A stretch of DNA of 64,000 nt from Actinacidiphila sp. DG2A-62 (GTDB lineage: Bacteria > Actinomycetota > Actinomycetes > Streptomycetales > Streptomycetaceae), in assembly GCF_035825295.1 (NCBI RefSeq), contig NZ_JAYMGI010000002.1:1776001-1840000 (forward strand). The letters run 5' to 3'. Each line of letters begins with the position of its first letter. Positions within the stretch are counted from its first letter, which is position 1. The translations under genes were made by a program, and so were the position numbers. The notes beneath the pieces were generated by a model. It ran no database searches and was not told the DNA's origin. It saw only the letters and a program-made list of their open reading frames with translations. Below are positions 28,251 to 52,826 of the stretch, one piece after another.

Positions 28251-28286
28251 TCCCGGCTCCGCGGCCGCCAGCTCAACGCTGAGCGC

Positions 28287-28429
28287 TGCCCCCCAGGGGC
28301 GCGGGGAACGGCGCGACCAGCCCATCCGCGGCCCGCAGATCGCCACCGCCCAGAAGGGGCAGCCCAGTCCGCTCCGGACCACCCGCCGGTGGGGGCTGAG
28401 CGCGCAGTTCCCCGCGCCCCTGGGGGCTG
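28287..28429. repeat. Intergenic inverted-repeat element, copy A
   Basis: About 143 bp bounded by inverted arms of about 28 bp around CCCCAGGGGCGCGGGGAAC. The middle is not symmetric but is shared with copy B (51191-51344): on the minus strand GGTGGTCCGGAGCG, then CTGCGGGCCGCGGATGGGCT leading into the far arm. It lies between the end of trpC and trpM. No reading frame. It may act as a terminator or processing hairpin. Confidence 0.8.
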
Positions 28430-28497
28430 ACGTCCAGCGTCACGGCGCCCCGCGGAGGGGGAAGGGCTCGACCTCGGGCGTTGACCCGGACCGGAGG

Positions 28498-51091: not shown

Positions 51092-51097
51092 AGCCTA
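51092..51097 (-). promoter_or_regulatory. Candidate -10 box for the ABC exporter
   Basis: Minus-strand TAGGCT, 8 nt before the GTG at 51083, giving an almost leaderless transcript. Confidence 0.4.
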
Positions 51098-51190
51098 CGC
51101 GATGCGCTCCGGGCGGCGTTCACCCCTTCCCCCTCAACCCCTGCGACAGGCGTCACGCCGCCCCGGCGGCACCCGGTCCTCGCGGCGCTG

Positions 51191-51344
51191 GACGTGCACC
51201 CCCGGGGGCGCGGGGAACTGCGCCACAAGCCCAGCACGGGCCGGTGGTCCGGAGCGATCCGAACAGCCCCTTTGGCCCGGTGACGACCTGCGGGCCGCAG
51301 ATGGGCTTGTCGCGCAGTTCCCCGCGCCCCTGGGGGTGCACGTC
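51191..51344. repeat. Intergenic inverted-repeat element, copy B
   Basis: About 154 bp with inverted arms of about 42 bp (GACGTGCACCCCC, then GGGGCGCGGGGAACTGCGC) that differ at only about two positions. The asymmetric centre, GGTGGTCCGGAGCG followed by CTGCGGGCCGCAGATGGGCT, is shared with copy A at 28287-28429. No reading frame. It lies between the NYN gene and the ABC exporter. Confidence 0.85.
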
Positions 51345-51427
51345 GAGCGCCGAGCCGGCCCGGGGGGCCGTACCGCGCAACGTCCGGCGTCGACGTAGCG
51401 GGGTCGGGGGATGGCTCAGCGCCGGCG

Positions 51428-52605
51428 TCACGTGTCGAACTCGCGCCAGAACCCCGCACGGATGGCGTAACGATCGTGCTCGTCGATCTGGTCGTCCTTG
51501 TGCGCGAGCAGCCCGAACCTCGCGGCGTACCGCAGCAGCTCCCCGTCGATGCGGTGCGGCACCCGCGGATAGTGCGCGGACATCTGCTGCCGCAGCGCGG
51601 GGTCGGCGACCCGCGCGATCCAGCGCCGGGCGAAGACCTGCCCGACCTCGTACGGATCGCCGCTCACCGCGGTGATGTCCGCCTCCCGGTCGGCCCACCG
51701 CTGCTCCGCCGTGGTGAGCTGCGCGAGCGTCGGCAGGCCGCTGGTGTCGGACTGGTCCGCGCGCTCGGCCCAGCCCTTCTCCGAGGACCAGCGCAGCGTC
51801 GCGCCGGCCGGCGACTGCGGGGCCGCCGGCGCGTGCGGGCGGCCGAGGCCGGCCAGGTCCTTGGGCGTCGGGACGCCCTTGCCGGACGCCGCGTGCGGCT
51901 CGTCCCGGTGCTCCTCGTCGGCCGGCGCGGAGCCGTTCTTCGCCGGGTGCGGCTGCCCCGGCGCGGGCGCGCCGGTCTCCGGGAGCGGCGCGGACAGGAT
52001 CGCGGCGATCTCCGGCCTGATCTCGGGCCGGCTGGCGGCGGGCAGGCGCCGGGGACGTCCCGGGCCCTGATCGCCGCGGTGATCCACTCCCGGTCCAGCA
52101 CGCGCCGTTCGTCCGCCTCGGCGACCAGGTCCTCGGACTGGTTGTAGTCCCCGTCGGCGGCCTGCACGGCCCACAGGTGCACGGCCACCCCGTGCTCCTT
52201 GGCCGACATCATGCCGGGCAGCAGGTCGCCGTCGCCGGTGACCAGCACCACGTCCGAGCAGGCCCGGTTCCTGGCCAGTTCGGACAGCTCGGCGTGCATC
52301 GCGGCGTCGACGCCCTTCTGCGCCCAGCGGCCGTCCGTACGGGTGAGCGCGCCGAGCCGCACCGTCACCCGGGGCATCACCCGCAGCCGGCGGTGCTCGG
52401 GTTGCGGAACGCGGTCGGGCGCTCCGTCGAACCAGTAGATCCGCAGCAGCGGCTGCCCGGTCTCGCGTTCCGCGCGTTCGCGCAGGCCAGCGACCACGGC
52501 GGCATGATCGACGACGATGCGGGAGCGCGAGGGCTCGCCGGCCAGCAGGCTCGCCGCTGCGCCCAGCAGGTACCCGGCGTCCACCAGGACGACGCAGCGG
52601 TCCAC
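51428..52605 (-). CDS. NYN-domain (PIN-like) putative ribonuclease, frame-broken
   Basis: About 392 aa once the frame is restored. Acidic metal-binding positions of the NYN fold are seen in DRCVVLVDAGYLLG, QKGVDAAMHAELSELA and VVLVTGDGDLLPGM. The frame breaks after WITAAIRARDVP at 52051-52054 (four C read on the coding strand, five needed) and resumes as RRLPAASRPEI. After an Ala/Pro linker, a C-terminal domain appears (DPYEVGQVFARRWIARVADP, then IDGELLRYAARFGLL). Start GTG at 52605 with AGAGG 7 nt upstream. The target RNA, if any, is unknown. Confidence 0.8.
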
Positions 52606-52826
52606 GTTGCACCTCTTCCGGTCGCCCCCCAGCACGGATGTCCCCCGAGTCTGCCCGAAGCACCGGGGCTTATGACCCCGAACGCGATCTTCGGCGTGGC
52701 GGTTTGTGCGATCGTGCATGCCACCCAGCCGCCAACTGCCCGAAATGCGCGCTTTGTCGCCTCGTGCAAATCTGATGGCGGCCCTTCGGCCACACGATTA
52801 CCTCACTTCACCAGGAAGGCACGATC

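Follow-up and report, generated by a model that had tools for sequence, protein, structure and literature searches.

The BIMEs of E. coli are doublets of two unit types with a preference for 3′ ends and convergent gaps, and they are a precedent for repeats that are bound by a host chromosome protein (e.g., gyrase, or a nucleoid protein). REP sequences and REPINs, as they are described in two papers on these elements, are very numerous and extragenic, form inverted doublet hairpins and tandem clusters, and vary greatly in copy number among relatives (PMC3116915; PMC3686654). By the definition given there, a REP starts with a 5′-terminal GT(A/G)G, which is followed by a palindrome, and has a cognate RAYT (Y1 transposase) (PMC3686654; PMC3116915), and the spread of REPINs is currently attributed to RAYT transposases (PMC3116915). 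Small structured interspersed repeats have also been described in pneumococci (BOX, RUP, and SPRITE), and were judged to be parasitic by the authors (PMC3049150). In Streptomyces clavuligerus, bidirectional transcript ends defined by term-seq include stable hairpins, one class of which lacks a U-tract (PMC8269248), whilst for S. coelicolor and E. coli, short abundant RNAs have been reported at palindromes, many lying within 3′ UTRs, and were taken to be probable intermediates of decay (PMC4681348).

The repeat described here came to our attention as “copy B” in a 64,000-nt stretch of the Actinacidiphila sp. DG2A-62 genome (hereafter, the window). It resembles REP/REPIN, as portrayed in the sources above, in being numerous, almost wholly intergenic, arranged in hairpin-forming inverted doublets and tandem clusters, and uneven in copy number. 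It is unlike them in that its core is shared across the Streptomycetaceae, rather than being species-specific, and in that Y1 is missing from its own genome and shows no family-wide tie to the repeat. Moreover, GT(A/G)G at the 5′ end is absent from the position profiles of the copies; the “a” tails of the own genome do contain GTGG (CCGGTGGTCC), whereas the “b” tail box and the consensus of units across species both lack it. Because both GT(A/G)G and RAYT fail, we use the name REPIN-like, and not REPIN. Our favoured reading, which we hold to be probable but well short of certain, is that copy B belongs to a non-autonomous, REPIN-like family of mobile elements of the Streptomycetaceae. With the E. 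coli BIMEs, the repeat shares doublets of two unit types and the preference for 3′ ends and convergent gaps, but not the sequence. It is also small, structured, and interspersed like BOX, RUP, and SPRITE, but has a different host, and both the sequence and the modular layout of those repeats are different. Stable hairpins and a U-tract-free class are likewise what is described for the S. clavuligerus ends, but those were defined by term-seq, and their description draws no link to this repeat.

Copy B and its setting

Copy B is located after the stop codon of a gene with an NYN domain (PF01936) and before the hexamer TAGGCT at the start of an ABC ATPase gene (PF00005), which is accompanied by an ABC-2 permease gene; both flanking genes are on the minus strand, and the domain matches bear out the NYN gene and ABC exporter named as neighbours in the earlier note. 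TAGGCT (51092–51097, minus strand) resembles a −10 hexamer and stands just before the GTG of the ABC gene. By comparison with the −10 consensus TANNNT, as given in PMC8780764, it would be a candidate promoter with a leaderless start at that GTG. The NYN gene (51428–52719, minus strand) is split over two frames, with the N-terminal NYN domain in one and a conserved C-terminal part in the other, which may reflect either a frameshift present in the strain itself or one introduced by the assembly.

The arms of copy B had been put at ~42 bp with two differences, and we measured 43 bp with exactly two differences between the left arm (51191–51233, plus strand) and the right arm (51302–51344, minus strand). 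The entire inverted repeat (51172–51363) has 71-nt arms (51172–51242 and 51293–51363) that are 83% complementary, with 50 nt between them. In the left unit, the conserved core GGCGCGGGGAACTGCGC (51207–51223, plus strand) is followed by an “a”-type tail containing GCCGGTGGTCCGG (51224–51259, plus strand). The right unit has its core at 51312–51328 (minus strand) and a “b”-type tail box, TGCGGCCCGCAGGTCGTCACCG, at 51278–51299 (minus strand), which served as a core-free query for copies. Folded as RNA, copy B has a predicted minimum free energy of −154.9 kcal/mol (z −10.2), and as DNA a z of −11.1; in each case, none of 200 shuffles was as stable. No Rfam family matched the window above its gathering score.

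A second doublet of the same repeat family, copy A, lies at 28276–28440 and has arms of 48 nt at 81%. As had been proposed, the two copies are in opposite orientations, with tails in the order b-a in copy A and a-b in copy B, both in gaps of minus-strand genes. Across the window, the 17-mer GGCGCGGGGAACTGCGC has nine matches with up to three mismatches (three perfect, one with one mismatch, and five with three), compared to a mean of 2.9 in shuffled sequence, where none of 100 shuffles reached nine.

A constant core with changing tails

In its own genome, the core GCGCGGGGAACTGCGC is present in 157 copies (76 + 81) with at most one mismatch, versus 2 (1 + 1) for a reversed control. Copy neighbourhoods were taken around the perfect cores listed, which extend up to 8.09 Mb of contig C2 and include two inside the window. 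With up to two mismatches allowed, the non-CDS copies around them fall into 65 clusters, namely 19 singletons, 34 doublets, and 12 larger groups. Neighbouring copies make 70 pairs (27 +−, 16 −−, 14 −+, and 13 ++), such that 29 of the 70 are direct, with 21 of these spaced at 79–86 bp and three at 120 bp. The +− pairs fall almost entirely (24/27) into two tight spacing classes of 103–105 (12 pairs) and 130–132 (12 pairs). All 24 of these doublets combine an “a” tail with a “b” tail, where the label given is the nearer of two 14-mers and the “b” label of eight doublets rests on 4–6 mismatches in 14. By eye, the 130–132 class is consistent with an additional palindrome within the tail.

Positions −4 to +15 of the core are conserved at 0.85–1.00 over 137 copies, with the minimum at +11, whereas the flanks drift. 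The same was seen in the stretches from four genomes (G003, G004, G012, and G001), in which the core is constant and the tails differ. Retrieval with the “b” tail alone gave 28 places, of which 23 have the core (up to three mismatches of 21) and five do not; the conservation of the core is thus not merely a matter of ascertainment. One of the five coreless places (L300) is at a known copy, from which that end has seemingly been lost, and the other four, which are three-mismatch matches, are perhaps due to chance. The basic unit would be an element of ~50–90 bp, in which the near-invariant core CAGGGGCGCGGGGAACTGCGC is joined to a variable tail rich in GC and, in many cases, to a 5′ hairpin that is also variable. 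Units are found alone, repeated in direct tandem, or paired in inverted doublets of fixed length, of which copy B is an example.

The 5′ hairpin was recognized mostly by eye, and the excess of folding on that side is weak (mean z of −0.8, versus −0.1 downstream). That the single unit has a conserved RNA structure was considered and rejected: RNAalifold on 133 distinct units pairs only GCGCG(6 nt)TGCGC within the core, with a covariation term of ~0, and the mean z of the first 60 units is −0.37. Since most of the 133 units were found via a match to the core, covariation inside the core would barely be detectable.

Some units also contain a second palindrome of ~30 bp (CCCCCAGACTCCGTCCGGGAGGTACCCCCA, with variants such as CTGGGGGTGCCTCCCAGGCGAAGCTCTGGGGGAGG) nested within them, which sometimes splits or replaces the ends of the core (e.g., G000:C2:5200411, 5644228, and 3459933; L034 and L042). 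It has the appearance of a separate, smaller family of repeats.

Position relative to genes

The position of the copies was assessed with gene calls from a home-made caller, at loci picked by core matches, in three sets: the own genome, 120 loci of named genomes (four under 3 kb were skipped), and 19 stretches from four genomes. Gaps with copies were distributed as 20 convergent, 35 codirectional, and 7 divergent in the own genome (other gaps, 57/198/90), as 41/62/9 at the named loci (other gaps, 50/291/115), and as 10/18/2 in the 19 stretches (other gaps, 3/31/18). Copies are therefore enriched in convergent gaps and depleted in divergent gaps in all three sets (Fisher p = 0.0012, 8e-11, and 1.6e-4, respectively). 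Only 2/126, 8/190, and 1/64 copies are within a called CDS and, together with the conserved core, these counts are far from the random placement within genes, or lack of arm conservation, that the earlier note had named as grounds for abandoning its interpretation. In codirectional gaps, copies are nearer to the upstream stop than to the downstream start, with median distances of 126 and 183 nt, 58 and 117 nt, and 101.5 and 199.5 nt, respectively. The suggestion that the element is not a directional regulator also held: 16 of the 24 a/b doublets are in codirectional gaps, divided into eight a-b and eight b-a along the direction of the genes, and single copies in the codirectional gaps of the named loci are on the same strand in 23 cases and on the opposite strand in 19.

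Taken alone, this bias in position would also fit a 3′-end function maintained by the host. The hairpins would then be bidirectional terminators, or 3′-end stabilizers, kept to end or protect transcripts from both sides, an explanation that we regard as unlikely. Enrichment in convergent gaps and closeness to the upstream stop speak for it, as do the very stable fold and the T-runs before CAGGGG. At least four T in the 8 nt before CAGGGG were found in 26/126, 29/212, and 22/66 copies, versus 1.6–2.9% of intergenic positions, so that the frequency of a T-run just 5′ of CAGGGG exceeds background by ~5- to 13-fold, although only a minority of copies have one. However, copy B gave no U-tract terminator in a scan, the sequence of the core, and not pairing alone, is conserved even in single units, the exact 19-mer is missing from 10 of 35 genomes of the genus, and no core was marked in the NYN-ABC gap of 24 of 30 genomes. 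The terminator-like role that had been suggested for copy B fits as regards position and hairpin, but the U-tract terminator was not found.

If copy B and its relatives are instead REPIN-like elements, a unit in a 3′ UTR would be transcribed into a highly stable hairpin in the RNA, which might obstruct 3′ exonucleases or assist termination; on position and fold, such a terminating or mRNA-protecting effect is plausible, but it would be a side effect and not the reason for the element's existence. Some strains carry as many as hundreds of these highly stable hairpins close to the ends of genes, and the repeat bears on how Streptomyces 3′ UTRs, term-seq data, and small-RNA predictions are read; the palindrome-associated RNAs reported in PMC4681348 would be a natural place to look for its hairpins.

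In S. scabiei and relatives (L153, L185, L187, and L192), CAGGGG is often immediately preceded by a palindrome of the form AAA…GC-hairpin…TTT; in several cases, this palindrome has a core on either side, head to head, and resembles a ready-made bidirectional terminator.

Distribution and probable mobility

The exact 19-mer is present in 25 of 35 genomes of the genus and, over the Streptomycetaceae, in 230 of 394 genomes and 9 of 17 genera, at 0 to 542 copies each. A class-wide sample, also of 394 genomes, gave 22 matches, all among its 40 family members and none among the 354 Actinomycetes sampled outside the family. A 29-mer scan of named genomes found at least 120 stretches and, among the 80 matches listed, 79 are from Streptomyces and one is from Actinacidiphila. 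On plasmids, the core was found in 11 of 72,556 records, all of them from Streptomyces. A phage or virus origin is argued against by the lack of any phage match at an E value of 0.01 and of any exact 20-mer in viral contigs. Literature text searches gave no match for the 16-mer core in either orientation (most subscription journals being outside their scope), nor for shorter strings from the core, whether combined with “Streptomyces” or with one another, and topic searches returned nothing on the repeat, as judged by title and start of abstract among the matches listed.

This distribution bears on a further alternative, modelled on the E. coli BIMEs, in which the core is a putative binding site for a host chromosome protein (e.g., gyrase, or a nucleoid protein) and was spread by gene conversion. 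A near-invariant core within divergent flanks, and restriction to one family among the sampled genomes, speak for such a site, but the copy number across the family is very uneven (0 to 542), and we think it very improbable.

Presence and absence of units in orthologous gaps supports the transposable behaviour that had been proposed. Of the 35 genomes searched for the NYN-ABC gap, 30 gave a locus and six of these have cores in it, in differing arrangements; the remaining 24, which include one that stops at a contig edge (L044), had no core marked. Three plasmid gaps are occupied in some relatives and empty in others (L274/L282 versus L280/L281, L277 versus L287/L288, and L279/L284 versus L283/L285/L286/L289), the clearest difference being one unit of ~84–90 bp. 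Overlapping loci of sister species have further unit changes with untidy edges. At neither the plasmid gaps nor the sister-species loci is a target-site duplication evident, but divergence of the flanks there prevents edges from being set to the base. No base-exact empty site was found, the relatives of G003 being too distant. We infer gain rather than loss, and hence movement of units.

Movement of this kind could also be that of a MITE of a DDE-type insertion sequence, with the doublet arms acting as terminal inverted repeats for a transposase supplied in trans. Doublets do have long inverted arms and fixed lengths, but single units themselves are present or absent and appear to be mobile, direct neighbours are common (the 29/70 pairs above), there is no clear target duplication, and no parental transposase was found; by eye, the eight intervals between or beside copies have no transposase-like gene. 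We consider this origin very doubtful. The same eight intervals hold ordinary-looking host genes, and an autonomous, gene-carrying copy was rejected on that basis.

The REPIN-like reading raises the question of the mobilizer. The own genome has no match to Y1_Tnp (RAYT), with controls positive in 5/14. Within the genus, Y1 was found in 1/25 copy-bearing and 6/10 copy-free genomes (Fisher p = 0.0008), but this anti-association was dropped since it is absent family-wide, where 71/230 copy-bearing and 57/164 copy-free genomes have Y1 (p = 0.45). Among the genomes that have 200 or more copies (22, counted by eye), seven have Y1. We rejected Y1/RAYT as a present requirement, given its absence from the own genome and the lack of association in the family; it could nonetheless have had a role in the past, or in some lineages. 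Reverse transcriptase (RVT_1) was rejected as well, being found in 13/35 genomes of the genus (8/25 copy-bearing and 5/10 copy-free, p = 0.44), as was IS110, which is present in 32/35 but missing from G004 (478 copies), G011 (123 copies), and G017 (94 copies). G004 and G011 have no match to Y1, RVT_1, or IS110. Y2_Tnp was silent in all 35 genomes, and its control was equally silent. Thus, no candidate emerged for the transposase recognizing the arms that the earlier note had envisaged, with Y1, RVT_1, and IS110 each missing from some high-copy genomes. For all four enzymes, loss after amplification could have occurred.

Under the REPIN-like reading, units would have multiplied within genomes by copying via a hairpin-forming single-stranded intermediate, with a DNA-binding or nuclease function recognizing the core, and would have built up nearly exclusively between genes, mostly close to stop codons, as selection cleared insertions out of genes and promoters. 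More tentatively, there is some possibility that this is a RAYT-independent, family-wide system of the REPIN type, in which another nuclease, or a host replication or recombination factor, recognizes the ~20-nt core CAGGGGCGCGGGGAACTGCGC and copies the hairpin-flanked units. If true, this would explain why the core is fixed across the Streptomycetaceae despite lineage-wise turnover of the flanks. That the main antibiotic-producing genus carries a family of comparable size, with an unchanging core and unlinked to Y1, would imply a second route to REPIN-like amplification.

On C2 (8.56 Mb), no perfect core lies in 1–1,081,965 among the matches listed (57 clusters; p ~0.0005 if uniform). Similarly, none is listed in 7.21–8.09 Mb, where a decayed copy with three core mismatches is found at 7.73 Mb (L306). 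Judged by the perfect copies listed, the repeat may avoid the chromosome arms. Elsewhere on C2, two clusters located 3.6 kb apart (G000:C2:1629516–1629707 and 1633292–1633562) have the same unusual 5′ flanks, placed in opposite orientation, as though one cluster were a copy of the other.
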